From IMG/VR virus record IMGVR_UViG_3300035670_000790, positions 1 through 33,690 of that record: a stretch of 33,690 nucleotides of DNA; one strand, written 5' to 3'. Every line of letters starts with the position of its first letter. The stretch's first letter is position 1. Both the position numbers and the translations under genes were made by a program. Below are positions 455-33,690 of the stretch, piece by piece. The stretch comes from a virus. The notes under the pieces are model-generated. The model was not told the DNA's origin and did not search any database. It saw nothing but the letters and a program-made list of their open reading frames with translations.

Positions 455-732
455 TAGGTGAGCGGATGAACAATGAAGCGAGTCCAGCGAGAGAAACGAG
501 CGATGTTGAGCGAATTGTTATACCCCACGAGGTATTAGACCTAGTGAGGTTTATGTGTGCGACATGGACAGATATAGACAAGTGGGCATACACAACCGGC
601 GATGCAATTATGCAATATCCAGTGATCCAAGGCACAAGAAACCAGATGAATCTGATGCGGATTGGTGAGCAGAAACACGATACAAGAAACATTCCAGCGG
701 CAGTAAAGTGGATGCTGGATAATGGGGTATAA
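451..732 (+). CDS. Unknown small protein whose ORF runs through a cassette boundary
   Basis: I chose ATG 451 because it makes an ATGA overlap with the preceding stop and has AGAGG at 441-445; an in-frame ATG at 421 is possible. The first ~22 residues are Glu/Ser/Arg-rich and are read from DNA resembling the inside and right half of an attC-like palindrome (ending GTTATAC at 517-523). The remainder (RFMCATWTDIDKW and on, ending MLDNGV) is the cassette-borne part, 517-733, bounded by GTTATACCCC and GGGGTATAAC. The stop TAA sits in the left box of the next attC-like site. The protein is therefore probably a chimera of site-encoded N-terminus and cassette body. No family recognised. Confidence 0.6.
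   Translation: MIGERMNNEASPARETSDVERIVIPHEVLDLVRFMCATWTDIDKWAYTTGDAIMQYPVIQGTRNQMNLMRIGEQKHDTRNIPAAVKWMLDNGV
501..523 (+). repeat. Right half of an attC-like site (left border of array 1)
   Basis: TTGAGCGAATTGTTAT here matches the right arm and right outer box of the complete attC-like sites at 26076-26134 and 31914-31967. The outer box GTTATAC (517-523) fits GTTRRRY except for one base. I could not find a convincing left arm (AGCTAACC-like) upstream, so this looks like the junction between phage DNA and the first cassette. Its box is complementary to the cassette's own right end: GTTATACCCC (517-526) against GGGGTATAAC (724-733), 10 of 10. Confidence 0.65.
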
Positions 733-774
733 CCCAGAGCTAACCGGCTAGTCCGGTTCAGCGAGTTGTTATAT
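727..774 (+). repeat. attC-like recombination site 1
   Basis: Outer boxes GTATAAC (727-733) and GTTATAT (768-774) are inverted. Inner arms GCTAACCGG (739-747) and CCGGTTCAGC (753-762) pair completely except for one extrahelical base, C759, on the right arm. The layout R''-L''-L'-R' with an unpaired arm base is the hallmark of integron attC sites. The stop codon of the ORF to the left lies in the left box, and the ORF to the right starts 25 bases after the right box. Confidence 0.85.
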
Positions 775-798
775 GGCAACTAATTAGAGGATTGAAAG

Positions 799-1392
799 AT
801 GAAAGTATTGATTGCGTGTGAATATAGCGGCATATCCAGGAGGGCGTTTGAGGCTCTAGGGCATGACGTTTGGAGCGCTGATTTTGAGCCTGCCGAAGAT
901 GGCGCGGCGAATCATTACCAGGGCGATTGCTTTGATCTCATAGAGCGTGAGCATTTTGATTTGATGATAGCGCACCCGCCATGTACGCACCTGGCAGTAA
1001 GTGGCGCGGCTTGGTTCAAGGAAAAGATTGCAGACGGCAGGCAACAGGCAGCACTTGATTTTGTGAAAAATCTCATGGGTGCGCCTATTGAAAGAATTGC
1101 TATTGAGAACCCTGTCAGCGTGATTAGCAGCAAAATACGAAAGCCAGACCAGATAATTCAGCCATGGATGTTTGGGCATACAGAACAAAAGGCTACTTGT
1201 CTATGGCTGAAAAATTTACCGAAGCTGACAGAAACAAATAACGTAAAAGCCGAAATGATGTTATTACCTAAAAGAGAGAGAGAGAGATTGCATTACTTGC
1301 CGCCAAGCCCAACTCGATGGAAAGAAAGAAGCAGAACCTACCAAGGCATTGCTGATGCTTGGGCGATGCAGTGGGGCGGTATTGCCATATAA
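799..1392 (+). CDS. Cytosine-C5-methyltransferase-fold protein, short form
   Basis: 197 residues with the layout of a C5 methyltransferase core: a motif I-like SAM loop at residues 3-20 (VLIACEYSGISRRAFE), the PPC motif with nucleophile-position Cys at 60-62, an ENP version of motif VI at 103-105, and a closing segment RTYQGIADAWAMQW near 179-192 resembling motif X. Full Dcm-type enzymes are 300 residues or more with a target-recognition domain; that domain is absent, so DNA methylation is plausible but not shown. Similar short proteins are common in phages. Start supported by AGAGG upstream. This is the whole cargo of cassette 768-1393, whose ends GTTATATGGCAA and TTGCCATATAAC pair 12 of 12. 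An (AG)n tract of about seven units from 1273 could slip. Confidence 0.75.
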   Translation: MKVLIACEYSGISRRAFEALGHDVWSADFEPAEDGAANHYQGDCFDLIEREHFDLMIAHPPCTHLAVSGAAWFKEKIADGRQQAALDFVKNLMGAPIERIAIENPVSVISSKIRKPDQIIQPWMFGHTEQKATCLWLKNLPKLTETNNVKAEMMLLPKRERERLHYLPPSPTRWKERSRTYQGIADAWAMQWGGIAI

Positions 1393-1393
1393 C

Positions 1394-1430
1394 ACTGGGT
1401 TAGACATTACATGACGGGATGTTTTACGTC
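1394..1430 (+). repeat. Type B palindrome, copy 1, right end of array 1
   Basis: Directly after the cassette end ATATAAC (1387-1393) comes ACTGG, then GTTAGACAT and the core GACGGGATGTTTTACGTC (1413-1430), closely matching the copy at 27024-27083. The right arm (ATGTCTAATACC in the other copies) is missing or replaced here by AAAGGACATAAC, which gives the next gene its ribosome-binding site. It marks the right end of array 1. Confidence 0.75.
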
Positions 1431-1442
1431 AAAGGACATAAC

Positions 1443-2986: not shown

Positions 2987-4977
2987 TACTGATCTTCCCG
3001 TGTGTTAATAGACCCAGTCACATAAGACGGCGTGCCGAATGTAGACTTGGCGCATAGTGTAAGCCATTCGCCTGGTTGCAGTGTAGTTTCTTCAGACCCA
3101 CCATTAAAATGGTGATCCAGCTCACCAGTATCTCCCAAGTGTCCAGACCATATAACCTGATTATTGTTTGACCATGTAACTGTAGTGGCCGATGTGTCCC
3201 ATGTTGTACAGGATGTTGTGGAGTAATCCGCAAAGCTAGGATTGCCTGCAAGTGTGCCATTCTTGACCAGATAAAGAATGACAGGGCTACTGTGTTTTAT
3301 TGCGCCTGATACAGATAGCAGATTTACAACAGCTTGATTGGCAATGCCGCCGTAATATCGTTTGTTCATCACGGTAAACAGTGCGCGATATGTTGCCGCA
3401 TCAACAGCGGTTGACTGTGCAAAGTAGCTGAACCTGTTTCCATGCAACTTCTTCTCGCCTTCGATAAACCCTGCAAATGATGCACTACTAACAGTCAAGT
3501 TAGTAGTTGACCCCGCAGAATAAGCCGACATAGTAAACGGAAACGATGGATTGCGAAACGATGTTGCCGTCAATGTATTAGGCAGAGCTAACGTGTGGCA
3601 TGTGACAAATACAGCATTGTTTCCAGCAGCCGACACCTCAACCTGAAACACTATCGCACCATAGCCTAAATACTGAATACCTATCTGGTACACGTTACCT
3701 TTCGTTGGGTCAATGGTAACACCGCTTGACCCAGTGCCGTCCATTGGATCGCCATTCCAGTCAGCTTGCGCGATGAACTGTTCAGTAACAGCTGCACCTG
3801 CGCGAGTCTGTGCAAACGACCCGACAACAGTAGTACCGCTAATGGAATAAACACCACTCGCAGCACCTACAGAATCGCGAACAAACACAACAGTAGCACC
3901 AGTTGCATAGCACTTCCATCCTGCAAAAGTACCCTGTGACAATTCCCATACCGTACGCTGTATGTTGGCACTGTTAGTCACAGCGATAGTGTATGCAGTG
4001 CCGTTCAATGTTACTGTGACATTCTCTGTCGTACTTGATGCGGTAGATATGGTCAGCGTCCTGACTTCCCTTGCACCACGCTTGTTATAGATAATCCCGA
4101 AATCAGCACCCTTGTAGCCAAAATATACCCCATCTTCAGAATGACCAAAGCCAGCCACTTGGTAGCTATCTGCAACGCCAGTTGTATATTTAGCTGTGAA
4201 CCTACCAACAACACCCTGACCTGGTCTGTACCTTAGCCTCTTGCGTGACTGGATAGCAGCATAACTGTAGATTGTCGTGCCTGTTGAACAGGTGAAGCTG
4301 GAATCACTGGCACTAGCTGACCCAGAGCCAGATTGCGTAGCTTCAACCTGCCCTTCATTCACTCCATAAACTGCATCTGTCTGGAATATGGGGTTAAGAT
4401 TTTCTGTGTGGATTGATCCGAAAGGAAGGCGAGGCGAGTGAAGCGCAACCTCTAAATGACCGTGTTCGTCTACCGGAACATTAGCCCACGATCCAGAATC
4501 AGTTTGCCCCATCAGCACAGAACGAGTGACAGCAGCATCAGCATCAGACTGGACAGTAGATGATAGTGTAGATGTCAAGGCAGGCTGAAATCCAACTAGA
4601 GTTTGCAATCTGAAATAGGTTTGTGGAGTGCCACCGTTAACATATCGAACGCGGAACCATTTACGGGTTATCGTGTAGCGGTGAACCTCGTTAACTCCAG
4701 CAGTAACAGTAGACGATAGCGAACTGTCCCAATTCTCCCCGTCTGGCGAGAACTCTGCATACAAAGTGCCGGATTGGTCAGTCTTTAACGCAATGACCAC
4801 AGACGCATAACTTGATACATTGACAGCCTCTCCAGTGTAAGTGCCAGCAGCACCTAGTATCTCACTGGTAGTGTTTTGATCAACCTCGACACCAATAGCC
4901 GCAGCCATGATGCCCTGTGCAATCATCTGTGTATGTTCTACATTGTGGATGTATAGATCGTTTACACCACTAGCCAC
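2986..4977 (-). CDS. Large putative virion surface or receptor-binding protein
   Basis: 663 residues, rich in Ser, Thr, Gly, Ala and Val with few charged runs, typical of beta-structured phage appendage proteins. A short low-complexity Ser/Gly linker (SGSGSASASDSS) near residue 220 separates an N-terminal segment, probably a virion-attachment part, from a long C-terminal part with repeated short beta-like strands. I do not recognise a tailspike enzyme motif. It lies downstream of the tail fibre among small structural genes, so a second fibre, spike or decoration is the best guess. Start ATG 4977 overlaps the previous stop by 8 bases. Confidence 0.6.
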   Translation of the reverse strand: MASGVNDLYIHNVEHTQMIAQGIMAAAIGVEVDQNTTSEILGAAGTYTGEAVNVSSYASVVIALKTDQSGTLYAEFSPDGENWDSSLSSTVTAGVNEVHRYTITRKWFRVRYVNGGTPQTYFRLQTLVGFQPALTSTLSSTVQSDADAAVTRSVLMGQTDSGSWANVPVDEHGHLEVALHSPRLPFGSIHTENLNPIFQTDAVYGVNEGQVEATQSGSGSASASDSSFTCSTGTTIYSYAAIQSRKRLRYRPGQGVVGRFTAKYTTGVADSYQVAGFGHSEDGVYFGYKGADFGIIYNKRGAREVRTLTISTASSTTENVTVTLNGTAYTIAVTNSANIQRTVWELSQGTFAGWKCYATGATVVFVRDSVGAASGVYSISGTTVVGSFAQTRAGAAVTEQFIAQADWNGDPMDGTGSSGVTIDPTKGNVYQIGIQYLGYGAIVFQVEVSAAGNNAVFVTCHTLALPNTLTATSFRNPSFPFTMSAYSAGSTTNLTVSSASFAGFIEGEKKLHGNRFSYFAQSTAVDAATYRALFTVMNKRYYGGIANQAVVNLLSVSGAIKHSSPVILYLVKNGTLAGNPSFADYSTTSCTTWDTSATTVTWSNNNQVIWSGHLGDTGELDHHFNGGSEETTLQPGEWLTLCAKSTFGTPSYVTGSINTREDQ

Positions 4978-5221
4978 TTGGCGTACTCCTGAGCCACTCT
5001 ATAAACAATCGACCTATCCACGCAAATACTGAAATAGCAGCAGCACCAAGGGCAGCGAAGATAGCACCAAAAAACGATGTCCGGTATTTCTCCCAACGCT
5101 CACGCGCCATCTTCCTCTCGTCCAAATACTCGCGAACCAACGGGATAACATCACGCAGGAACTCATGATGCTCCCTGTGTTCATCAGGTTCGATATGCCT
5201 TATTTTTGCAGGATCACTCAT
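4970..5221 (-). CDS. Single-membrane-segment protein, XhlA-like or holin-associated
   Basis: 83 residues from ATG 5221; the longer frame up to 5287 overlaps the preceding small gene and is less likely. The N-terminal 48 residues are charged and helical (REHHEFLRDVIPLVREYLDE), followed by one membrane segment (FFGAIFAALGAAAISVFAWIGRLF) and a short tail. This order resembles small XhlA-like or holin-associated phage proteins. It could be a second holin or pinholin-like protein, but the real holin candidate lies at 2122-2514. Confidence 0.6.
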   Translation of the reverse strand: MSDPAKIRHIEPDEHREHHEFLRDVIPLVREYLDERKMARERWEKYRTSFFGAIFAALGAAAISVFAWIGRLFIEWLRSTPSG

Positions 5222-5351
5222 CACCGCCCACTTCTGGGAGCGCATCGCCAGGCTCGTAAACCACAACAGAATCTCCCTTGTAGTCAATCGCTACAACAGG
5301 ATGCGATGCCACATAGGCATTAGCTTCTTCAACTGTAAGAAATGTTTTCAT
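5214..5351 (-). CDS. Small hypothetical protein, 45 residues
   Basis: Runs from MKTFLTVEEANAYVASHPVV to ...EVGGDE, acidic. ATG 5351 makes an ATGA overlap with the stop of the preceding structural gene, and its own end overlaps the start of the next gene by 8 bases. The coupling on both sides supports translation. Function unknown. Confidence 0.65.
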   Translation of the reverse strand: MKTFLTVEEANAYVASHPVVAIDYKGDSVVVYEPGDALPEVGGDE

Positions 5352-5857
5352 TTCATCACCCGTATGTTGTAGTTTTCCAGTGTAACAGTTTCTGTTCCTG
5401 TCGCTTTTGTGCCTGTTATTATTATTTTCTGTGCTAATGATGTATCAATCGTGCCAGTCGCTACCGAAAGATTTGCAGTAATCGCACGGCCAGCATAAAT
5501 ACCTCCAGCATTTACCGCCTGACTTGCCCTGTTGCCAATCCAGAAGCTGAACCCGCTAGATGATGTTGAAGCCTGAGCGTTAAACACAACAAAAGCAGTG
5601 GATGTACCAACAGTTAACGCACCACCAACAGAACCATTGCCATTGCCCAAGTAGACTCTGTATGTCTTTGTATTGGTAGAGTTAGTATGGCTTATAAATA
5701 CATCGCCTTTCATCATGCCACTTAATCCAAGCAATCCAGCAGGCAAAGCTATGACTGCCAAGATTCTTTCATCAGTGGTATTTTCAGAGATCGTTACAGC
5801 GGTCGAACTCTCGGAAAGAGTAAACGCACCGCCTAGTGGTGTGCCTATAGTTAACAT
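5348..5857 (-). CDS. Putative minor structural protein, 169 residues
   Basis: Start ATG 5857 is coupled to the upstream stop (TGATG). The sequence is Ser/Thr/Gly/Ala/Val-rich with alternating hydrophobic residues and almost no charged stretches, as in small beta-sandwich decoration or fibre-associated proteins. It lies in a run of four similar small genes between the tail fibre and lysis genes. No named family recognised. Confidence 0.6.
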   Translation of the reverse strand: MLTIGTPLGGAFTLSESSTAVTISENTTDERILAVIALPAGLLGLSGMMKGDVFISHTNSTNTKTYRVYLGNGNGSVGGALTVGTSTAFVVFNAQASTSSSGFSFWIGNRASQAVNAGGIYAGRAITANLSVATGTIDTSLAQKIIITGTKATGTETVTLENYNIRVMK

Positions 5858-6186
5858 CACGACACCTCGCGAACAACTAGGTAAAAGTCCCTGTCAGCAG
5901 CTTCAGCACTGCCAACACTCAGCACAACATAAGGCATGCCACAGTACAAGGCAGGATCAAGTGAAATGTACCTGTCAGTCCCTAGCGCAATTGTTGGAGA
6001 GTTGCCAAGGTAATCAGTGTGGACCTTGCCATTAGTCCCATCAATCGATGCAACTATGGTCATTGTGGTCGATGTCAATGCAGCCGGGGTGACTACAGCA
6101 ACAAGACCCATCTGCCCAACATCACCACCTATGTGGATTGTTTCACTGTCCGTCTGGCCGCTTCTTACTGTGCATCTGATTAACAT
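5857..6186 (-). CDS. Putative minor structural protein, 109 residues
   Basis: Begins MLIRCTVRSGQTDSETIHIG; beta-rich composition and no membrane segment. It is coupled to the next gene by TGATG. The closing segment (DFYLVVREVS) and DRYISLDPALYCGMPYVVL suggest a compact beta domain. Together with its neighbour it may form part of a head or tail decoration, but this rests only on position and composition. Confidence 0.6.
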   Translation of the reverse strand: MLIRCTVRSGQTDSETIHIGGDVGQMGLVAVVTPAALTSTTMTIVASIDGTNGKVHTDYLGNSPTIALGTDRYISLDPALYCGMPYVVLSVGSAEAADRDFYLVVREVS

Positions 6187-6198
6187 GGTGTAGCCCTC

Positions 6199-6699
6199 TT
6201 AAAATGGTCTTACATAAACGATTGCGGTGATGTCTGACCCTGTTACAGCAGCATCGATAGCCGCATAGTCAGCATCCCGAAGCGCCATAACCTGCCCGAA
6301 TATATAACATGTCAAGTCGAAGTCATTTTTAACAGCAGCATGCACATCCGCAGTCGTAGCTAATCCTGACTCTGCCTGATACCCGTCATAGTATGGCGTG
6401 TCATTTGCCACATTGTCAGTGTAGGCAACACTATCCGCACGGGCAGCAAGATACATCAAGCCCACCAAAATACTTGCAGGATCGGACGTAACAGCAAAAG
6501 CCGCCATAAGATCGTTATTGAGATCAGTGTTGTACTGGTTTTTTACAGCTAACCGAGTCGCTGCAAGGTCATATTCCCATGTGGACAATCCTGCATTCCA
6601 TGTACATGTAGGATATGGACGCTGTGTAACCTCAGTGTCAGAAGCTGAACGCCTATCGCCCTCGTAATAATTGGATGAACCGTCTATGTAGTAACCCAT
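6199..6699 (-). CDS. Tail-fibre-associated protein, possible assembly factor
   Basis: 166 residues beginning MGYYIDGSSNYYEGDRR, followed by RPYPTCTWNAGLSTWEYD. Short motifs of the type 'YYeG...RP...W' near the N-terminus occur in phage proteins encoded just after tail fibres (tail-fibre assembly and DUF4376-like proteins). The C-terminal half is helical and acidic. Its start directly abuts the fibre stop at 6699, supporting a chaperone or accessory role for that fibre. Moderately uncertain. Confidence 0.6.
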   Translation of the reverse strand: MGYYIDGSSNYYEGDRRSASDTEVTQRPYPTCTWNAGLSTWEYDLAATRLAVKNQYNTDLNNDLMAAFAVTSDPASILVGLMYLAARADSVAYTDNVANDTPYYDGYQAESGLATTADVHAAVKNDFDLTCYIFGQVMALRDADYAAIDAAVTGSDITAIVYVRPF

Positions 6700-8378
6700 T
6701 AAAATTTCCTCTTACAGATTAGCTGTGTGTTCCAGTTAGCAGATGTTAGTGTTCTAACAGTATCATTTGCTGCGACGTCAAATATAAGAGTTAAATACGC
6801 AGACATTGATATGCCGCATTTTTTCCAGTTTCCATCTGTTGCATTATTTCTTGCAAATGTATTTCCGCCTGTGTATGAGCCTGCATACCATAACAACGCA
6901 TCAACCTCGTCACCTATTCTGTATCCATACTCTGCCGTTTTACATATCAGTTTACCGCTAACATCAAAAGGCGCACCGATATTACAATTGAATGTGGTTA
7001 TTGTGCTTAACGATATTACAGCAGGCGTAGACTCATAGTAACCATTGTAGGCATAGGCAACAGTTGAAGTTACCGCGCCACCACTAGCAACAGCCTCACC
7101 AACAATCACGCGCCATGTTGCACTTGTAGCCGAACCATCGCCTACATACATCACCATCCGTCTGTAGTCGTATGTGTGAAGCCCGTTAGTAGTAGCAGCC
7201 GTGCCGCCATTCTGGAAAGCAGGGGCTACAGTAGTTACTCCGGTGGTAAATGTGCCATCAGTGCCGACATCTACATATAGATAATTTGTGGCATTGTTGG
7301 TCACAGTCCATGTAAAGTTAGCTGTGGCAGTAGCTATACGATCAGAGCCAAGCCCAAACCCTTGGGATGCACAGACAACAAACGGAACATTGCTAGTTAT
7401 ATTCTGTGTAGTCAGGGTTAAGTCTGCATCAGTAGCAGGCAGGAAATCAGGCAAGCCAGCAGATGTTATCGGGCCACCCTGTACTGTTTGCCGTACATTA
7501 GTCAACGGCATCATTGGCAAAGGGTTAAGGATTACAAAGTCAGTCCCATCATACTCAATAATCGCAACCTGACCGGACACCATAACACCTGACCGCTTGT
7601 TACCCGCCGCATCATATTGCTTGAGATTCTTGGCACCCAACGCATTTACATTGATGTCGTTACTTCCAGTTGTGCCGGTAGAGTGACAGACAACAGTAAA
7701 CCTCTGACCAGTGACATAGGCAGCAACCGCAGGACTGGCAGTAGTCAGTGTGTAGTTTGGCGCAGTACCCGCAGTGGCATACCGGATGCCTTCCTGCTCT
7801 CGGTTATTCTTCACCGTTTCCAGTGTCGCCCTAGCCTGTGCGCTAGTAGCATCGTCTAACAGTGTTTCGGCAAATGCCGTGATAGTAGTGACAGGCGAAA
7901 GGTCAGCAGGAACTATAAGAGCAGGGTCACCGCTACCATCAAAGCCTAACAATTTGTTAGCCCTGTCAGCAGAATCACCCACTATTTCCATGCCAGTAGC
8001 AGTCGTATCAGCAAAGGTCAATGTCCTGGACTGTACTGAATCTTGGTACTGCAAGATGGAATAAAGCCGGTCAATGTCATTGTCTAGCGTTTCAGACAGC
8101 AACTCCCCGCTCTGCTGGTACTCGTTTTCCCTGTCCAGATTAGGGACTAGCTTGATCAGCAATTCGGCAACACTGGCAGCAGGTGCAGTGGTGAACACAA
8201 CATTACCGCCAGTCCTTGTGCCTATACCTGTCACCGTGTACTCACTATCGGCAATCAGCACATCATCGGCATAGACCTTTAACTCCGCCTCATCAAAGCA
8301 GCAGAAAGTGTAGGCAAATGTAACCACTACCCCATCAGGGTTATAGGTGTTGTACTGTGTCTGTTCAGTGATCGCCAT
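6699..8378 (-). CDS. Tail fibre with T7-type N-terminal attachment domain
   Basis: 559 residues from ATG 8378, which overlaps the terminase stop as TAATG; an in-frame start further upstream would lie inside the terminase gene. Residues 1 to about 130 (TEQTQYNTYNPDGVVVTFAY, the YADDVLI hairpin, NDIDRLYSILQYQDSVQSRTL) match the T7 gp17 N-terminal domain that docks the fibre to the tail. The rest is Thr/Gly/Ala-rich beta structure without a T7-like shaft and should carry host recognition. Unlike T7, it lies after the large terminase. Confidence 0.88.
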   Translation of the reverse strand: MAITEQTQYNTYNPDGVVVTFAYTFCCFDEAELKVYADDVLIADSEYTVTGIGTRTGGNVVFTTAPAASVAELLIKLVPNLDRENEYQQSGELLSETLDNDIDRLYSILQYQDSVQSRTLTFADTTATGMEIVGDSADRANKLLGFDGSGDPALIVPADLSPVTTITAFAETLLDDATSAQARATLETVKNNREQEGIRYATAGTAPNYTLTTASPAVAAYVTGQRFTVVCHSTGTTGSNDINVNALGAKNLKQYDAAGNKRSGVMVSGQVAIIEYDGTDFVILNPLPMMPLTNVRQTVQGGPITSAGLPDFLPATDADLTLTTQNITSNVPFVVCASQGFGLGSDRIATATANFTWTVTNNATNYLYVDVGTDGTFTTGVTTVAPAFQNGGTAATTNGLHTYDYRRMVMYVGDGSATSATWRVIVGEAVASGGAVTSTVAYAYNGYYESTPAVISLSTITTFNCNIGAPFDVSGKLICKTAEYGYRIGDEVDALLWYAGSYTGGNTFARNNATDGNWKKCGISMSAYLTLIFDVAANDTVRTLTSANWNTQLICKRKF

Positions 8379-9994
8379 TAGTAATCTACCTGCGCCTCGA
8401 AAACGCCCGACCTTGGACTCCAATTCTGACCCTTGCTAGGGTTGAATTTCCCAAACGATTGGACACGCTCTGGAGTCATGGAAATAGCCTTGGCAGCAGA
8501 ATCTATATAGTCGTCATCGTTACTGGTAGCCGATGGGTTGAACTCTAGCAGCTCGTTATATGCCGGAGAGTCAGCTACCTGCCTGCTCATTGCCAATTGG
8601 TTTGACAGGATCAAAGGCTCAAAGGCCTCTAATATCCGCTTGTTTTTATTCTCGGATGAATGATCATCCCCTACCCCACAGACCAGTTTCCTTTGCTTGA
8701 ACGCCGCCTTTAGTACGGCAGGCATGAACTTCCCTATCCCGTTAGTCTCAACCTGCACCCTGCTAATCCGGTACTTTTCCACCACATCACAGATAGTCAT
8801 AACCTGACCACCGGTTATAGTCCTGCCATCCTCGGCAAACTCGGCAACCTCGCCAACCAACGGCAAAGCCCTGTGCCAGTACCGCTTGCCGTTCCCATCC
8901 TGTAATACCAAGGCTAGGGCAGACACATCAGACTTCAGCTTGCCGGATGCAGGGTCTATAGTAAGCGCAGCACCTACCATCTGAATCCCGTTCAATGTCA
9001 TCCTCAGCCCACCATTGACCTCATCAATGACCGGCTCACAGTCATAGACCTCTACACGCTCAGGGTCAAGCCTCACATTCCCGATAGGTCTAGCCATTAA
9101 CATATACTGACTATCCCACTCGTTCAGCGTCCGGCATTCCTTCCTGCGCTTTGCCATTTCCTTTCTGGTAAACCGCTCAGGCCATAGCGATTCAGAGTAG
9201 AAATCCACAACCTCTGCACGCTCCATCATCATCACATGCCAGCCATCAGCCGTATTGGTCAGGGTGTAGTCCTGACCTGCCTCCAATAACCTAGCACCCG
9301 ATCCGATACCAGTGAACACGAACTCAGGCTTGAACGGCATTACACCGTGATCGGTATTGTTTACCCTGTAATAATGCTCGAACATCCGCAAGATAAGACA
9401 GTCAGCACCGCCTTTCTTTACCTCATCATATAAGGAGTGATGGGTATGTGGAGTGCCTACATATAGCCTGCGCCCTCCTGGCACTAGGATGTGCGTCTGT
9501 TCGCTTAACCTATACCTTAGCTTTTCCCTAGCCTCGGCACTCTGTATATTCCTTGGCACTTCTACATCATCATTCTGTATCTCATCCGCACGGGAACTGG
9601 TGACGTTAGAGGTTATCCCCCTTGCCTGCATTGACGGGTTGCGAGGATCGGTAGAACCTTCCACCCACCACATCTGCACTTCCCCTTGCTGCTTTTTCAT
9701 CTTGCGGGTAAGTGGATGCCGCTCTATTACTGCTAGGGTATCTCTGCTCATCTTGTATGCGGTATCGTCCTGATCGCCTTGATGCAAGATCCTATAGGAA
9801 GGATCACAGTAGTATCTCCAAGCGTTATAGACAGCAAGGATAGTAGACTTTGCATGACCCCTTGGCATCATCAGTAAAGCCGTTTCAGTGAACGACTCAA
9901 GGAACGCACAGACTCGAAGGTGAAAGTCCGGCACATCCCATCTCTGGACATCAGCCCAAATCAGGAAGAAAACCGAAAAGCTAACCTTGTTCAC
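8378..9994 (-). CDS. terL: Terminase large subunit, T7 gp19-like
   Basis: 538 residues. ATPase: Walker A-like PRGHAKST at 44-51 and SRADEIQNDDVEVP near 134-147 with the Walker B acidic pair D142-D143. Nuclease: TIDPASG with D347, D356 in KSD, and VETNGIG with E416, the pattern of the RNase H-like headful-type nuclease. Length and the RAD...DDVE block agree with T7 gp19-type motors. It pumps DNA through the portal and cuts concatemers. It overlaps the small-terminase candidate by 14 bases. Confidence 0.95.
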   Translation of the reverse strand: MNKVSFSVFFLIWADVQRWDVPDFHLRVCAFLESFTETALLMMPRGHAKSTILAVYNAWRYYCDPSYRILHQGDQDDTAYKMSRDTLAVIERHPLTRKMKKQQGEVQMWWVEGSTDPRNPSMQARGITSNVTSSRADEIQNDDVEVPRNIQSAEAREKLRYRLSEQTHILVPGGRRLYVGTPHTHHSLYDEVKKGGADCLILRMFEHYYRVNNTDHGVMPFKPEFVFTGIGSGARLLEAGQDYTLTNTADGWHVMMMERAEVVDFYSESLWPERFTRKEMAKRRKECRTLNEWDSQYMLMARPIGNVRLDPERVEVYDCEPVIDEVNGGLRMTLNGIQMVGAALTIDPASGKLKSDVSALALVLQDGNGKRYWHRALPLVGEVAEFAEDGRTITGGQVMTICDVVEKYRISRVQVETNGIGKFMPAVLKAAFKQRKLVCGVGDDHSSENKNKRILEAFEPLILSNQLAMSRQVADSPAYNELLEFNPSATSNDDDYIDSAAKAISMTPERVQSFGKFNPSKGQNWSPRSGVFEAQVDY

Positions 9995-25702: not shown

Positions 25703-25708
25703 TCATCC

Positions 25709-25773
25709 AAATGTCTTATATACTTGAACTGTGTGCTTGTTAATATGGACACATCAACCACGGAGATGCAGAC
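25709..25773 (+). promoter_or_regulatory. Duplicated promoter/leader block, copy 1
   Basis: A 65-base block ending at the ATG of the next gene, repeated at 29718-29782 with exactly the same spacing. The left part shares AAATGTCTNATNTACTNGA; the right 29 bases before the start codon are almost identical, from TATGGACACATCAACC through CGGAGATGCAGA, including the GGAG ribosome-binding site. TAATAT at 25741 could be a -10 box. It faces away from the late promoters, making 25660-25773 a divergent control region. Confidence 0.6.
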
Positions 25774-25944
25774 ATGAGCAAGTACCACGTTACAAAAGAA
25801 GGGTTAAGGGTTGGCGCTGGCGGTTATCCGATATGCGGAACAAGAAACAAGGACAGATATTTTGTTGTGACGCTGAAAAAATCAGATTTTGAAGCGTTAC
25901 CGCCTGAGCAACAATGCAGTAAGTGCGCGGTAAGAATTAAATGA
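25774..25944 (+). CDS. Small hypothetical protein, first early gene
   Basis: 56 residues, MSKYHVTKEGLRVGAGGYPI through CSKCAVRIK. C47-x2-C50 and an earlier Cys could make a small metal site (first CGTR near residue 21). It starts right after the duplicated leader with its GGAG site, and ends at an ATGA overlap with the next gene. Probably an early regulator or accessory protein; function unknown. Confidence 0.65.
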   Translation: MSKYHVTKEGLRVGAGGYPICGTRNKDRYFVVTLKKSDFEALPPEQQCSKCAVRIK

Positions 25945-26081
25945 AACCAAAATCTGAACTCATGGCCAGACTTCGCAAGGAGCGAGCTGGCAAGGGGCTG
26001 GTAGAGCTGCGGCTGTGGCTTACGCCAGAACAGAAAGAGCGCGTCTTGAAGTGCGTGTCGCGGCTGAAGCGTGACGCATAA
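25941..26081 (+). CDS. Small ribbon-helix-helix-like protein
   Basis: 46 residues: KSELMARLRKERAGKGLVEL, then RLWLTPEQKERVLKCVSRLK. The Lys/Arg helix, 'GLVELRLWLTPEQ' strand and following helix resemble short phage proteins thought to bind DNA through a ribbon-helix-helix fold. Starts at ATGA. Its stop TAA forms part of the left box of the first attC-like site in array 2, so it is the last phage gene, or an unflanked cassette ORF, before that array. Confidence 0.6.
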   Translation: MKPKSELMARLRKERAGKGLVELRLWLTPEQKERVLKCVSRLKRDA

Positions 26082-26134
26082 TCCAGAGCTAACCGGCTCG
26101 CGTTAGCGAGTCCGAGTTGAGCGAATTGTTATGT
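26076..26134 (+). repeat. attC-like site 2, first of array 2 (59 bp)
   Basis: Outer boxes GCATAAT (26076-26082, final C changed to T) and GTTATGT (26128-26134). Arms GCTAACCGG (26088-26096) and CCGAGTTGAGC (26112-26122) pair throughout except A26115 and G26119, two extrahelical bases on the right arm. Loop CTCGCGTTAGCGAG is itself self-complementary. The 59-bp length and two-bulge structure are classic for attC. Read on the minus strand it begins ACATAACAATTCGCTCAAC, very close to the start of common class 1 attC sites. Confidence 0.9.
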
Positions 26135-26156
26135 GCTGGTAAGGTAAGGGGTATTT

Positions 26157-26333
26157 ATGGAATATGAAGAACTGAAACGAAGATGCGAAGTCATTGAACA
26201 ATGCTTACCCGATTCTCCATTTAAGAATCAAATTATAGAGCTGCATAAAGAGATGCTTTACCGGATTGATTCTTTAGGACAGGCATTAGAAGCAACGAAT
26301 GACGAATTGGCTGATTTGCTTTATAGCACATAA
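26157..26333 (+). CDS. Cassette ORF, 58-residue helical protein
   Basis: MEYEELKRRCEVIEQCLPDS to ...LADLLYST. Mostly acidic helix with two Cys. AAGGGG lies upstream of ATG 26157. The stop TAA lies in the left box of the next site. Its cassette is bounded by GTTATGTGCT (26128-26137) and AGCACATAAC (26325-26334), a perfect 10-bp inverted repeat. Function unknown. Confidence 0.65.
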   Translation: MEYEELKRRCEVIEQCLPDSPFKNQIIELHKEMLYRIDSLGQALEATNDELADLLYST

Positions 26334-26402
26334 CCCAGAGCTATGGGGCGAGCGTAGCGAGTCCAACGAACGGAGTGAGTGACCATGAGCGAATTGTTAT
26401 AT
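26328..26402 (+). repeat. attC-like site 3 (75 bp, extended loop)
   Basis: Outer boxes ACATAAC (26328-26334) and GTTATAT (26396-26402). Arms GCTATGG (26340-26346) and CCATGAGC (26383-26390) pair except for G26387, one extrahelical base on the right arm. The long middle contains its own short complementary pieces, like the variable terminal structure of many attC sites. Confidence 0.88.
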
Positions 26403-26418
26403 GGCTAAAGGAGATTAT

Positions 26419-26745
26419 ATGAGCGTGATTTGTAGAAACACCGGATGCAGACAGGAAATAGAATGTATAAATTGCGATTGTGGGTTAGTGGTTTATTTGC
26501 ACAGTCTAACACCGCAGGCAAAAACAATGACTTGGAATGAATGGAGAGCCGCTGGCGGTTGTGGGCTTTCTATGTTAGCAGATGGTGAACTGCATAGGAG
26601 CGGGATATTAGAAAAGCCATTGGCTATACAAAACCCGCTGCTAGGAGATGTTGCGCGTGGTTCTGTTCTTGCAGAGCGCGAGATTGCAAGATTTGGGTAC
26701 AAGAATCTAGGCATGGATAATTGGGCTGTGCGAGAAGCCATATAA
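26419..26745 (+). CDS. Cassette ORF, Cys-rich protein
   Basis: 108 residues from ATG 26419, which has AAAGGAG six bases upstream; a longer in-frame start ATG 26401 lies in the attC box. Residues 5-23 carry six Cys (ICRNTGCRQEIECINCDCG), probably a zinc-binding knot, followed by a Trp-containing helical body. No family recognised. The cassette ends GTTATATGGC and GCCATATAAC are a perfect 10-bp inverted repeat. Confidence 0.65.
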   Translation: MSVICRNTGCRQEIECINCDCGLVVYLHSLTPQAKTMTWNEWRAAGGCGLSMLADGELHRSGILEKPLAIQNPLLGDVARGSVLAEREIARFGYKNLGMDNWAVREAI

Positions 26746-26792
26746 CCCAGTTTTTCAGCGGGCGAAGCTCCGGTGCAAAACCGTTGTTAGGC
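26740..26792 (+). repeat. attC-like site 4
   Basis: Outer boxes ATATAAC (26740-26746) and GTTAGGC (26786-26792); GTTAGGC fits GTTRRRY exactly and is the commonest integron right box. Arms TTTTTCAGCGG and CCGGTGCAAAA pair with two mismatches around GCGAAGCT. The boxes do not match each other because each belongs to a different neighbour cassette. Confidence 0.82.
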
Positions 26793-26818
26793 GTTGTAAT
26801 TAACGAGAGGTAGAGAAG

Positions 26819-27022
26819 ATGGACGAAATCAGGAAATATAGATTTACAATTGATGTAGAGATTCAGATTTCAGGAAGGCAGATAGACGAAGAAAAAATAA
26901 ATCAGATGCTTGTATGTTCGACTAATGAGCATGGAATGCCTGGAGTGCTTTTCGATGATGATGATTTAGATATTCAGGCATTTAGTAATTCGTGGGAAGT
27001 TTCATGCGATAGGATCGCCTAA
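26819..27022 (+). CDS. Cassette ORF, 67-residue acidic protein
   Basis: MDEIRKYRFTIDVEIQISGR, with an acidic DDDDLDIQ segment near the end. The alternating pattern in residues 5-20 suggests a beta strand pair. GAGAGG precedes the start. The stop TAA lies in the cassette's right box; ends GTTAGGCG (26786-26793) and CGCCTAAC (27016-27023) are complementary over 8 bases. Function unknown. Confidence 0.65.
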   Translation: MDEIRKYRFTIDVEIQISGRQIDEEKINQMLVCSTNEHGMPGVLFDDDDLDIQAFSNSWEVSCDRIA

Positions 27023-27023
27023 C

Positions 27024-27083
27024 ACTGGGTTAGACATCACATGACGGGAAGTTTTACGTCATATCAGCGGAATGTCTAATACC
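27024..27083 (+). repeat. Type B palindrome, copy 2, right end of array 2
   Basis: After the cassette end GCCTAAC comes ACTGG, then GTTAGACAT (27029-27037), core GACGGGAAGTTTTACGTC (27043-27060) whose ends TGACG/CGTCA pair, and ATGTCTAATACC closing the outer arm. GTTAGACAT and ATGTCTAAT are inverted with one mismatch, so it looks like a minimal cassette without an ORF. It has no T tract, arguing against a simple terminator. Confidence 0.8.
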
Positions 27084-27136
27084 ACAATTGCTATGGATTG
27101 CTAGAATGAGGCTGTAAATCAAACGAGGGTACGCAA

Positions 27137-28864: not shown

Positions 28865-28995
28865 GCTTTGGCGTACCGGTGAACTGTATGCGTGTTTTAT
28901 ACTTTGATGTGCGGCTAGGGTAGCTCCCGAAAAGCCTGCCCTGTCTGACGGGCTTGCCGCATATCTTATCAGACCACCTAGACAGAGGTATTACA

Positions 28996-29709
28996 GTGAG
29001 CAACAAATTCCTAGATTTGGCATGGAAAGCCAATGTCACGCATACGCAGAAACTTGTCCTAATATCACTCGCAGATCAGGCTAACGATGACGGCATATGC
29101 TGGCCATCTGTATCAACGACATCCCAGCGCACCGGATTATGCGAACGAGCGACCAGACGCGCACTGGCTGACCTAGAGAAACAGGGTAATATCAAGAGAA
29201 GCTACCACACCGGCAGACCGACAATATACACCCTAACCCCTGCACTAGATGCACCCATGCACGAAATGCACCCCTGCACCACATGCCCCCCACCCCTGCA
29301 CCACATGCAGGACACCCCTGCACCAGATGCCTATGACCCCTGCACCACGAGTCAACATAACCATAAAGAACCATCATTGAACCATCAATTAACCATCATT
29401 GACGCTCCAGCCAAGGCTGTCGCCAAAAAGGTTAGGGCTACTAGGTTGTATTCTGATTGGAAACTACCAGAGGAATGGGCAGAGTGGGCAACGATAGAGG
29501 GTATGGATAGCGTGACAGTTAGGAAGCAAGAGAGCATATTCAGGGACTACTGGATAGCAAAGTCAGGAAAGGATGCTGCCAAACTGGACTGGGAGGCAAC
29601 TTGGCGTAACTGGGTCAGGAGGCATCTAGATCGTAATCCGGTTAAGGCACAGCCTGCTGATGACTTCCTGGCTCGTCACACAGACAGGTCATGGGCTGAG
29701 GGTCTGTAG
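28996..29709 (+). CDS. Replication initiator, helix-turn-helix plus DnaT-like C-terminus
   Basis: 237 residues from GTG 28996, preferred over ATG 28954 because of AGAGG at 28983-28987 and because MSNKFLDLAWKANVTHTQKL is the usual beginning. Residues 1-85 are the helix_turn_helix_36 domain (WPSVSTTSQRTGLCERATRR, ALADLEKQGNIKR). A linker (residues about 80-125) is encoded by the iterons. The C-terminus (ESIFRDYWIAKSGKDAAKLD, WEATWRNWVRRHL) is the DnaT/primosomal type seen in phage replication proteins. It should bind the iterons and recruit helicase, as lambda O does. Confidence 0.85.
   Translation: MSNKFLDLAWKANVTHTQKLVLISLADQANDDGICWPSVSTTSQRTGLCERATRRALADLEKQGNIKRSYHTGRPTIYTLTPALDAPMHEMHPCTTCPPPLHHMQDTPAPDAYDPCTTSQHNHKEPSLNHQLTIIDAPAKAVAKKVRATRLYSDWKLPEEWAEWATIEGMDSVTVRKQESIFRDYWIAKSGKDAAKLDWEATWRNWVRRHLDRNPVKAQPADDFLARHTDRSWAEGL
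29236..29352 (+). repeat. Iterons, putative replication origin inside the initiator gene
   Basis: Six copies of a 17-bp unit, consensus ACCCCTGCACCACATGC, starting at 29236, 29253, 29270, 29292, 29314 and 29336. Spacing is 17, 17, 22, 22, 22 bp; 22 bp is about two helical turns. The last copy is diverged at its end. An AT-rich tract with repeated ACCATCATT-type words (29357-29400) follows and could be the unwinding element. Location inside the initiator gene next to an AT-rich stretch matches lambda ori in gene O. Confidence 0.8.
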
Positions 29710-29717
29710 CCTACGAC

Positions 29718-29782
29718 AAATGTCTAATTTACTGGATTTGCAGGATTGGTAGTATGGACACATCAACCACGGAGATGCAGAT
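29718..29782 (+). promoter_or_regulatory. Duplicated promoter/leader block, copy 2
   Basis: Same 65-base layout as 25709-25773: AAATGTCTAATTTACTGGAT, then at the same distance TATGGACACATCAACC and CGGAGATGCAGA up to the ATG at 29783. The identical spacing with a diverged middle suggests that the ends are constrained by function, probably a promoter plus leader with ribosome-binding site. Confidence 0.6.
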
Positions 29783-29911
29783 ATGAACACACTCAGCAAG
29801 AAACAAGAGATTCAGGTTCGCCGCCAAGCGCAGAAACACTTAAGAGGTATCCCAGCTCGCCAAAATGCTGCAGCCATTGTCAGAGCAGCAGCAGAGATAG
29901 GAAAGCAGTAA
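29783..29911 (+). CDS. Small basic protein, 42 residues
   Basis: MNTLSKKQEIQVRRQAQKHL with RGIPARQNAAAIVRAAAEIG and a KQ end; one basic helix-rich domain. It starts directly after the duplicated leader and its TAA overlaps the next ATG (TAATG). Likely an early nucleic-acid-associated peptide; function unknown. Confidence 0.6.
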   Translation: MNTLSKKQEIQVRRQAQKHLRGIPARQNAAAIVRAAAEIGKQ

Positions 29912-31695: not shown

Positions 31696-31731
31696 ATGAC
31701 TACTGAACTTGTGCGACTTGTTAGGCTATGA
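31696..31731 (+). CDS. 11-residue leader peptide across the array 3 border
   Basis: AAAGGAAG lies seven bases upstream of ATG 31696, a better ribosome-binding site than most genes here. The frame reads MTTELVRLVRL and stops at TGA 31729-31731, overlapping ATG 31728 of the first cassette ORF (ATGA). It would feed ribosomes into a cassette that lacks its own site. The attI1 site of class 1 integrons is known to hold a similar short ORF that boosts cassette translation. Confidence 0.5.
   Translation: MTTELVRLVRL
31720..31726 (+). repeat. Single GTTAGGC box at the left border of array 3
   Basis: A perfect GTTRRRY box one base before the first cassette ORF, without the palindromic arms of the attC-like sites. 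It is complementary to the right end of the same cassette, GCCTAAC at 31914-31920. It therefore looks like a simple, attI-like or secondary insertion point. Confidence 0.6.
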
Positions 31732-31919
31732 AAAAGCATCATCTAGTCAAAATAGAATGGCGAGATCCTTGTTCAGATTGGCCGTGGTTTTTTATCATTG
31801 GATTTGATGGTGAATGGGTGCATTTGCGCGGCGCGGATTACCCGGATGGAACTGGGAAACACGACGGATCATCATTCTGGGTTCACAGAAATGAGATCAA
31901 GTCAATGATTGATGCCTAA
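31728..31919 (+). CDS. Cassette ORF, 63 residues
   Basis: MKKHHLVKIEWRDPCSDWPW and on, rich in Trp and His, ending NEIKSMIDA. The LVKIEWRDP and EWVHLRGAD strands suggest a small beta barrel (SH3-like), only a guess. It begins in the border box and has no separate ribosome-binding site; the overlapping leader peptide can supply translation. The TAA stop is in the next site's left box. Confidence 0.6.
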   Translation: MKKHHLVKIEWRDPCSDWPWFFIIGFDGEWVHLRGADYPDGTGKHDGSSFWVHRNEIKSMIDA

Positions 31920-31967
31920 CCCACAGCTAACCGGCGCGAAGCGTCCGAGTTGAGCGAATTTTTAGGC
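31914..31967 (+). repeat. attC-like site 5, first of array 3
   Basis: Outer boxes GCCTAAC (31914-31920) and TTTAGGC (31961-31967; first G of GTTAGGC changed to T). Arms GCTAACCGG (31926-31934) and CCGAGTTGAGC (31945-31955) pair except A31948 and G31952. The arms are identical to those of 26076-26134 while the loop differs (CGCGAAGCGT), showing the same site family. Confidence 0.88.
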
Positions 31968-31994
31968 GGCAACTAACTACAGAGGATAAACAGA

Positions 31995-32312
31995 ATGAAA
32001 CGCGATAAATATAAGTTACAAAAAGACTTTGAGGGCCGGTTTGCCGGTAGATTCGGAAATAATATCGTTTCCAAAAAAACACCATCTGGTGAATATGAAA
32101 ACGGCGATGTATTGGCTATGTATTGCGGATATGTTGCCGGGATAGACTCTGTGAAAATAAAAGTCCCGGCAACTTCAGTAAGATGGCGCGATGCAAATAC
32201 CGCAAAGCTAGAGGATATTTTAAATGCCGAAATAGAAATGAGAAATAAATTTATAGACGCCTGTCGAGAGGCTGGTATAGAGCCGGTATTCGGTGGAGAT
32301 ATAGATGATTGA
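31995..32312 (+). CDS. Cassette ORF, 105 residues
   Basis: MKRDKYKLQKDFEGRFAGRF, then EIEMRNKFIDACREAGIEPV and an acidic end. AGAGGATAAACAG precedes ATG 31995. Basic first half, helical second half; no family recognised. Its cassette is the only one whose two ends do not match: TTTAGGC on the left, GTATAAC on the right (32314-32320). Confidence 0.6.
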   Translation: MKRDKYKLQKDFEGRFAGRFGNNIVSKKTPSGEYENGDVLAMYCGYVAGIDSVKIKVPATSVRWRDANTAKLEDILNAEIEMRNKFIDACREAGIEPVFGGDIDD

Positions 32313-32313
32313 C

Positions 32314-32400
32314 GTATAACCCAGAGCTGAGGGGCGAGAGATGAGCGAAGCGAAGAACGAGTCCAGTGGCGAAGCCACGACCTCTAGCGAGTTGTTATGT
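32314..32400 (+). repeat. attC-like site 6 (87 bp, extended loop)
   Basis: Outer boxes GTATAAC (32314-32320) and GTTATGT (32394-32400). Arms GCTGAGG (32326-32332) and CCTCTAGC (32381-32388) pair except T32385. The long loop has an inner GTGGC...GCCAC hairpin and contains the ATG (32341) of the next ORF. Confidence 0.85.
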
Positions 32401-32601
32401 TGCAGAGAGTGCGGAAACACTTTTATAGAATGTTTCCCATCTTGGTGGGTTGGCTGCAAACCGTGCAATAACCATGTTAGCGGGGCGACACGCAGCGGTG
32501 CGGTTTCCAGATGGAATAAGCAACATAACCAGTTTATTCAGCGGTGCGCAGCATCCGCTGGAATTAGTTGTTATATGCCACATGGAGAAATCACATGGTA
32601 G
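32341..32601 (+). CDS. Cassette ORF with Lar-like zinc ribbon, fused through two attC-like sites
   Basis: 86 residues. The core CCRECGNTFIECFPSWWVGC, KPCNNHVSG and AVSRWNKQ has the spacing of short zinc-ribbon proteins of the Lar restriction-alleviation type (C-x2-C ... C-x2-C/N, then A-x-x-x-W-N). The first ~19 residues are read from the loop of site 6, the last ~17 from site 7 and the next cassette's beginning, because this frame has no stop in the box ACATAAC. The native product may thus be a chimera or start at an alternative codon near 32391. The cassette is only 32394-32529. Confidence 0.5.
   Translation: MSEAKNESSGEATTSSELLCCRECGNTFIECFPSWWVGCKPCNNHVSGATRSGAVSRWNKQHNQFIQRCAASAGISCYMPHGEITW
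32523..32576 (+). repeat. attC-like site 7
   Basis: Outer boxes ACATAAC (32523-32529) and GTTATAT (32570-32576). Arms ATTCAGCGG (32536-32544) and CCGCTGGAAT (32555-32564) pair with a single extra G on the right arm around loop TGCGCAGCAT. The arms differ in sequence from the GCTAACCGG family but keep the same architecture and bulge position, so structure is conserved rather than sequence. Confidence 0.87.
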
Positions 32602-32972
32602 TCACAGGCAGGGTACATGGAGCGGCAGCCAGAAAATATGCTGGTTATTGCTACAGAAAGCCTATAAAAACTAGGCTTGATATTTTTTCGATTGATCCCG
32701 CAAGGATTGATCCTTTACATGAATACCCGAGAATAATAGAAAAGCCCATGTACCCAGCGGAATGCAAAACTGTTGATCTGGCGGATTATGAAGCGTTTAT
32801 TGGCGCAATGAATGAGAAAGGTGAAAGCCAATTAACCATAACTATGCTGCCAAACGAGTACACACAAGCTGAAGTGCCGCTGGTAGTTTACGAGATGACA
32901 ATAAACGGGATACTGCCAAACAGTGGTTTTTGTATCGACGAGGCTATGAGACGCTGTTTCAGTGGCATATAA
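32595..32972 (+). CDS. Cassette ORF, 125 residues
   Basis: MVVTGRVHGAAARKYAGYCY and on, then IDPARIDPLHEYPRIIEKPM and LTITMLPNEYTQAEVPLVVY. ATG 32595 has GGAGAAA upstream; a longer frame from 32568 begins inside the attC box. Alpha/beta character, no family recognised. Its cassette has the best ends of all: GTTATATGCCAC (32570-32581) and GTGGCATATAAC (32962-32973), 12 of 12. Confidence 0.65.
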   Translation: MVVTGRVHGAAARKYAGYCYRKPIKTRLDIFSIDPARIDPLHEYPRIIEKPMYPAECKTVDLADYEAFIGAMNEKGESQLTITMLPNEYTQAEVPLVVYEMTINGILPNSGFCIDEAMRRCFSGI

Positions 32973-32973
32973 C

Positions 32974-33033
32974 ACTGGGTTAGACATCACATGACGCAAA
33001 ACATCCCGTAATATCAGCGGAATGTCTAATACC
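32974..33033 (+). repeat. Type B palindrome, copy 3 with inverted core, right end of array 3
   Basis: ACTGG, GTTAGACATCACAT and TATCAGCGGAATGTCTAATACC are the same as in copy 2, but the 18-base core is GACGCAAAACATCCCGTA (32993-33010). That matches the reverse complement of copy 1's core at 16 of 18 positions and of copy 2's at 15 of 18, and does not match either core in direct orientation. It follows the last cassette end at 32973. Confidence 0.82.
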
Positions 33034-33085
33034 ACAGCACCAAAAAGCATGGAACAATACAGACTCAATACATCGGAGAATGGTT

Positions 33086-33397: not shown

Positions 33398-33690
33398 GTA
33401 AGGTGGCGGAAGTGTGGAAAACCCTGTCAGCAGTAGATTGCAGTAAGCAGGTTGAAAAAAAAGGTCAGCTATCCTACCTGTCGTGGACATGGGCTTGGCA
33501 GATACTAATGGAGTATTATCCTTCCAGCACATTCGAGTTTCACCCTGACACGCACCAAGGCGAAACTGTAATGGTATCGTGTACCGTTACAGTTGAGGGC
33601 ATGGCTAGGACAATGTGGCTACCAGTAATGGATAACCGCAATAAATCAATAGTTAACCCAACAAGCAGGGAAATCAGTGACGCACGGATG
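33394..33690 (+). CDS. Sak3/DUF1071-type single-strand annealing protein (partial)
   Basis: The first 99 residues before the window end. VEKKGQLSYLSWTWAWQILM with EYYP and TMVSCTVTVEG... MARTMWLPVMDN is the N-terminal signature of DUF1071, the Sak3 family of phage single-strand DNA annealing proteins. With NinB and NinG it would complete a lambda-like recombination set. ATG 33394 overlaps the previous stop (ATGA). The C-terminus is outside the window. Confidence 0.85.
   Translation, partial: MSKVAEVWKTLSAVDCSKQVEKKGQLSYLSWTWAWQILMEYYPSSTFEFHPDTHQGETVMVSCTVTVEGMARTMWLPVMDNRNKSIVNPTSREISDARM

Follow-up and report, generated by a model that had tools for sequence, protein, structure and literature searches.

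In the early region of a phage contig we found what is very probably a true integron cassette array that resides in an early operon, carries its attC sites against the direction of its genes and ends on an attI-like palindrome termed type B. The window, meaning the whole stretch of DNA analysed, is the complete record of one virus contig of 33,690 bases, and the array under study (array 2) is one of three arrays of one kind on the plus strand of its early region, at about 476-1431, 26076-27086 and 31705-33036 (Table 1). An initial annotation had described array 2 as three attC-like sites, three small ORFs and a palindrome, all of which were found at the positions it had given, and its reading of them as an integron cassette array within a phage early operon is supported by a test of the cassette ends and by a bacterial attC covariance model, which agree. 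Cassette borders, marks of circular closure, attC structure, a polarity opposite to the genes, occurrence in many phages, IntI in some of these and gain and loss of units can all be read from sequence, and are claimed here on that footing only.

Table 1. Sites and units of the three arrays (positions in the window; CM, covariance model; z, fold score; attI-like roles are inferred).
Feature	Position	Strand	Remarks
Half attC S1, right half only	476-526	-	read through in frame by ORF 421-732
Cassette 1a	517-733	+	ORF 421-732, start inside half attC; 11-base end match
attC S2	727-774	-	CM 35.0 bits, E 4.7e-8
Cassette 1b	768-1393	+	ORF 799-1392, phage DNA methyltransferase family phrog_757, E 5.7e-69; 12-base end match
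attI-like site B1	1387-1431	-	right part different; from type B comparison
46-aa phage gene	25941-26081	+	TAA stop is left border of array 2
attC S3	26076-26134	-	CM 31.7 bits, E 4.4e-7, bounds exactly as in initial annotation; z -3.4
Cassette 2a	26128-26334	+	ORF 26157-26333, 58 aa, unknown; start GTTATGTGCT matches end AGCACATAAC, 10 bases
attC S4, weak, long terminal loop	26328-26402	-	conserved arms and end match; CM 10.5 bits, E 0.79; z +1.3
Cassette 2b	26396-26746	+	ORF 26401 or 26419-26745, 114/108 aa, unknown; 11-base end match
attC S5, intermediate site	26740-26792	-	CM 7.6 bits; z -1.3
Cassette 2c	26786-27023	+	ORF 26819-27022, 67 aa, unknown; 8-base end match
Type B, attI-like B2	27017-27086	-	L box GTCTAAC, 5 nt, G|TTAGGC, then phage-side palindrome
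Half attC, left end of array 3	31705-31726	-	from end test
Cassette 3a	31720-31920	+	ORF 31728-31919, 63 aa; 7-base end match
attC S6	31914-31967	-	CM 32.0 bits, E 3.6e-7
Unit 3b	31961-32320	+	ORF 31995-32312, 105 aa; sole unit without matching ends
attC S7	32314-32400	-	long loop with ATG in frame to next ORF (32341-32601); no stable fold
Cassette 3c	32394-32529	+	10-base end match
attC S8	32523-32576	-	CM 30.2 bits, E 1.2e-6
Cassette 3d	32570-32973	+	ORF 32595-32972, 125 aa; 12-base end match
attI-like site B3	32967-33036	-	palindrome loop inverted relative to B2

As the contig has no terminal repeats and an open frame, which by reading alone we take to encode a single-strand-annealing-like protein, runs off its end at position 33690, the genome is partial. 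Its structural genes mark a podovirus that is a distant relative of Yersinia phage YeP5 (54% in the portal), while no close DNA relatives were found among 50,697 phage records. One phage attC motif scanned over gammaproteobacterial genomes matched only one of 369, so that no host can be named. The 46-aa gene bordering array 2 has a 66% identical homologue in the viral contig L193, where an attC left half likewise follows it directly; in L193 (8924-9177) gene and half site are succeeded by an array with opposite gene direction, an arrangement that looks like an inversion that joined two arrays. Searches of Pfam, PHROGs and PADLOC gave no match for any cassette ORF, that of cassette 2b included, apart from the methyltransferase, and no cassettes were common to the window and the other fetched contigs, bar the methyltransferase family and flanking genes. 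Rfam returned no attC family match and only an int-alpA RNA (RF02996) at 28908-28975, barely over the gathering score and upstream of an HTH_36 replication-type gene; imperfect tandem repeats of about 17/22 bases (CACCCCTGCACCACATGC) lie at 29252-29348 within the HTH_36 protein gene.

The covariance model was built from 11 bacterial attC sites of near-equal length with a structure assigned by hand, none of them viral; a MAFFT alignment of full-length bacterial attC had been dropped for its poor right arm. When the model was run across the window with filters off, its top four matches were S2, S6, S3 and S8, with ends exactly as expected (30-35 bits, E 5e-8 to 1e-6), the next-best match elsewhere in the window reaching 16.8 bits, and control phages gave no matches. 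The check by attC covariance model that the initial annotation had proposed thus places window sites far above background. S4 and S5 are weak in this model, and S4 and S7 score near background; by the model alone array 2 consists of one strong site, S3, and two weak ones. Across 14 phage sites, six of the ten consensus pairs keep pairing after double changes, and a single unpaired column is located on the 3' arm. One correction to the earlier description concerns the extrahelical bases, which are on the arm opposite to that in bacterial cassettes. DNA folding supports S2, S3 and S8, less so S6 and S5, and S4 and S7 do not fold, so the proposed single-strand check divides array 2, with S3 folding, S5 intermediate and S4 lacking a stable fold. 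The sites qualify as folded attC, having a spacer, extrahelical bases and R and L boxes that pair, with S4 and S7 not stable, and the definition of a CALIN as at least two model-detected attC sites within a few kb without intI nearby is met too, with S6 and S8 of array 3 lying 0.6 kb apart. The arrays may be partly decayed, given the unfolded S4 and S7, the half sites at S1 and at the left of array 3, and the ends of unit 3b.

Integron cassettes make a further prediction, namely that the R'' arm at the end of a unit pairs with the first bases of the same unit, bases that the site upstream supplies within an array, and does not pair with the R' box of its own site. End matches of 7-12 bases were found in eight of the nine units, against at most 6 with the own box, which meets the definition of an integron gene cassette by R''/own-start pairing with closure at G|TT; the exception is unit 3b, running from S6 to S7. 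All three sites of array 2 are cassette borders by this test, with runs of 10, 11 and 8 bases compared to at most 5 with the own box. Summed over the nine units the end-match score is 81 bases, and among 362,880 assignments the true one alone reaches it. Because the closure rule recovered classical arrays when applied blind to bacterial intI loci, we regard it as a valid mark of cassettes. End matching alone is no proof, as six chance pairs of at least 10 bases occur outside the cassettes on the plus strand of the whole contig, all of them over longer distances.

These results bear on two explanations that do without an integron. Hairpin repeats that terminate transcription or direct RNA processing between small genes of the phage would account for palindromic sites placed between genes and for B2 folding better than shuffled sequence, yet they would predict neither a left arm that pairs with the downstream bases of the upstream site, nor a bacterial attC model match on the non-transcribed strand, nor units being gained and lost whole at these sites, and the end matches, which are not at chance level, contradict them; we hold this explanation to be very improbable. 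Small transposon-like units with terminal inverted repeats, such as MITE or IS remnants, would explain the inverted ends of 7-12 bases, but the end sequence varies from unit to unit, the units follow one another head to tail across attC arms, and what is conserved does not belong to the units, which leaves hardly any credibility for such an origin.

While the units behave as integron cassettes, their genes do not follow the usual bacterial order of ORF and then attC: the four confident model matches in the window all lie on the minus strand and all cassette genes on the plus strand, so that gene direction in attC polarity is not met in four of four confident sites. Single-base bulges agree with this assignment, being found in bacterial arrays on the arm at the stop-codon side (70 left, 22 tie, 4 right) and in all seven full window sites on the opposite arm. 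As a control, 35 bacterial intI loci were examined, where 100 of 100 among the matches listed lay on the strand expected from intI, and we consequently take polarity calls of the bacterial model to be reliable. Cassettes were counted when an ORF covered at least 60% and clearly exceeded the other strand; these coverage and length-ratio filters address the issue of both strands being open in GC-rich arrays and were checked with known-family genes. Those that fix the coding strand are the phrog_757 methyltransferase in the window, a C5-methylase in contig G402, a DHH phosphoesterase in L242 and a methyltransferase in L253. ORF and attC had the same polarity in 56 and opposite polarity in 2 bacterial cassettes, compared to 27 same and 50 opposite in viral contigs (Fisher p 1e-14), a p value that is too small, since the viral contigs are related and partly duplicated and independence is overstated. 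Some phage cassettes are thus standard (27 of 77 calls), nine of these 27 coming from one isolate contig, L252, with a normal chromosomal-type array. Contigs with terminase or other firm phage genes, picked by hand, gave 27 opposite and 6 same. Most viral loci were chosen by one attC motif, which is neutral to gene direction but represents one subtype. At the deposited circular phage MW202573 five attC matches lie on the minus strand and the annotated CDS on the plus strand, an inverted arrangement, and phage TJE1 showed standard polarity in the present test. A sole bacterial intI locus with inverted cassettes was seen (L165, G220:C57), where a protein with phage-family matches is encoded upstream and which may be a prophage.

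The opposite polarity in the window is read from structure, without recombination data for these sites, and that leaves room for an attC subtype with its extrahelical bases on the other arm and ordinary cassettes. We judge this unlikely, because in the IntI-bearing phages G402, L253, L254 and L251 the sites point away from intI as they do in bacteria while most genes point toward it, and because the L box and the conserved attI-like end stand on the side that inverted polarity predicts. Extrahelical bases direct attC strand choice in experiments (PMC2727003), and with inverted polarity it would hence be the coding strand that recombines, with the crossover on the stop-codon side. An explanation by reverse integrons of the Treponema type, defined by an intI transcribed toward attI, was rejected on intI geometry: G402 intI runs away from the array border and keeps its normal geometry toward attC, the majority of the cassette genes pointing toward intI. 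The phage KX853513 (Virus Rctr41k, L263) has, at positions 4680-9155, an IntI-like gene together with small genes that all run one way and have palindromes between them; a single weak attC match falls on the strand of the genes, and the locus is perhaps a phage-borne reverse integron of the Treponema type.

Integron cassettes set against their attC sites would place each attC 5' of a gene, where it can hold the translation start. An ATG within attC that is open into the cassette gene was found in the gene's frame in 25 of 141 distinct sites and in the other frames in 4 and 7, a comparison mildly biased by the gene's own frame being open downstream, and the in-frame ATG is often preceded by a Shine-Dalgarno sequence. 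Loops with both elements occur in L253, L215, L213, L254, L234 and others, and by eye the half site of array 1 (MNNEASPARETSDVERIVI...) and S7 (MSEAKNESSGEATTSSELLC...) likewise carry an in-frame ATG.

The palindrome that the initial annotation had placed behind array 2 is present; it does not count as a further attC like the other three but forms the attI-like end of the array, facing the conserved phage sequence. Read on the minus strand, B1-B3 are ...ATGTCTAACCCAGT-G|TTAxxx, identical up to the crossover G|TT and divergent past it, at the start of the first cassette. The motif GTCTAAC matches an inverse core box (L box RYYYAAC), and its distance of 5 bases from the G|TT that follows is that of an attI site. 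From this spacing and from conservation only up to G|TT we infer that type B is an attI-like landing site where each array starts. The type B motif was not found in IMG/VR outside the window. The inner loop of the palindrome (27038-27060 and 32988-33010) is inverted between B2 and B3, B1 resembling B2, which looks like the outcome of recombination between hairpin arms or of a strand switch in replication. Two repeats, 82% identical (25708-25780 and 29717-29789), precede two gene blocks and open with ATGTCTWAT, as the type B right arm does; an early promoter or operator common to the attI-like site is possible.

No match to the IntI family (TIGR02249) was found in the available 33.7 kb record, itself incomplete, so that the criterion of a complete integron, intI, is not met within it. 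The initial annotation had noted the lack of a nearby integrase, which holds for the record and cannot be taken as real absence, as the contig is incomplete and IntI is present in other array-bearing phages. Searches of IMG/VR with attC motifs returned 4, 30 and 1 contigs, and with the G402 IntI as query 22 viral loci with IntI relatives were obtained. IntI and large terminase occur together on one contig in G402, G408, G409 and G410, of which G402 further carries portal, capsid, tape measure and endolysin genes. L216 is related to the window phage, as seen from its lysozyme (58%), its tail-end gene (51%) and a flanking gene (43% over 30 residues); at the array 1 locus it holds cassettes that differ from those of the window. 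In the viral contigs L241 and L242 the sequence around intI is 99.9% identical, yet whole cassettes, delimited by attC, distinguish the two. Both cases imply that cassettes come and go, and the finding that would have spoken against the initial reading, relatives without gain or loss of units, was not made.

Against this must be weighed a dead remnant, acquired a single time from a chromosomal integron of the host and now decaying without adaptation to phage life. It would fit the half sites, the poor folding of S4 and S7 and the contig's lack of an integrase, and Vibrio and Shewanella phages do carry captured integron pieces (PMC9892861), the Shewanella one (L264) in standard orientation. It does not fit genes opposite to attC polarity in array after array, unrelated phages included, nor a phage gene as cassette (phrog_757), other cassettes at the same locus in L216, or one attI-like end common to three separate arrays, and we consider it quite unlikely.

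For the favoured reading, a resident cassette array with attC against the genes, we propose that each unit was formerly a closed circle joined at G|TT by an integron integrase. A cassette in phage orientation would consist of attC, ribosome site, ORF and stop TAA|C, where the bacterial one consists of ORF, stop and attC. With the crossover within the TAAC of the upstream gene, insertion would leave that gene intact, and the newly inserted gene would be transcribed from the phage's upstream promoter. Type B, of which this phage has three, would be the attI-like end at which the integrase adds cassettes, and the integrase itself could come from the phage (in the missing part of the contig), from another phage or from a host integron. 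It is by inference only that recombination is taken to continue, type B to act as attI, the integrase to have any of these sources, transcription to start at a phage promoter and the cassette genes to bring a benefit.

Phage-borne integron parts, cassette clusters and methyltransferase cassettes have been published by Qi et al. 2023 (PMC9892861), who found five of six tested phage attC sites to recombine with IntI1. The present arrays resemble their phage CALINs and integrons in attC arrays without integrase, in methyltransferase cassettes and in a site type proven active there by experiment, and MW202573, re-examined here, belongs to their set and has the same inverted polarity. Unlike here, no inverted polarity was reported in that work, TJE1 being standard in our own test, and no phage with three arrays having one repeated attI-like end in common was described (PMC9892861). 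The closest attC sequence match to the window is to gammaproteobacterial sedentary chromosomal integrons (e.g. Endozoicomonas L034), which share attC structure and cognate cassette ends; their genes, however, follow attC polarity and their array sits in a chromosome. Treponema reverse integrons (PMC3607928, PMC7691350) are alike in that intI and cassette genes are transcribed one way, but there intI runs toward attI and R'' contains the stop codon of ddl, as it would in an ordinary cassette, whereas in the present phages an intI, where there is one, has the usual geometry and it is the cassette genes that are reversed. The open literature yielded no account of phage cassettes with inverted genes, subscription papers and preprints being outside our scope, and the systematic gene inversion with attC as 5' leader appears unreported.

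The common view of integrons is that bacteria use them to capture genes and that phages carry such captured pieces now and then; early phage genes are where functions in anti-defence and host takeover tend to lie. We lean, with some reserve, toward the view that phages run their own branch of integrons, with inverted cassettes, an attC 5' leader that often provides Shine-Dalgarno sequence and start, phage-encoded or borrowed IntI, one or several attI-like sites in early operons and an exchanged pool of small early genes. Annotation tools that presume the order ORF and then attC are predicted to misassign cassette contents in phages. The arrays offer a testable explanation for the shuffling of small phage genes in whole units, and they may be a site where new cassettes are made, a long-open question of integron biology. 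Taken from early-operon arrays, phage genes, locus differences and inverted genes in many phages, some of them with integrase, the evidence suggests a gene exchange adapted to phages.
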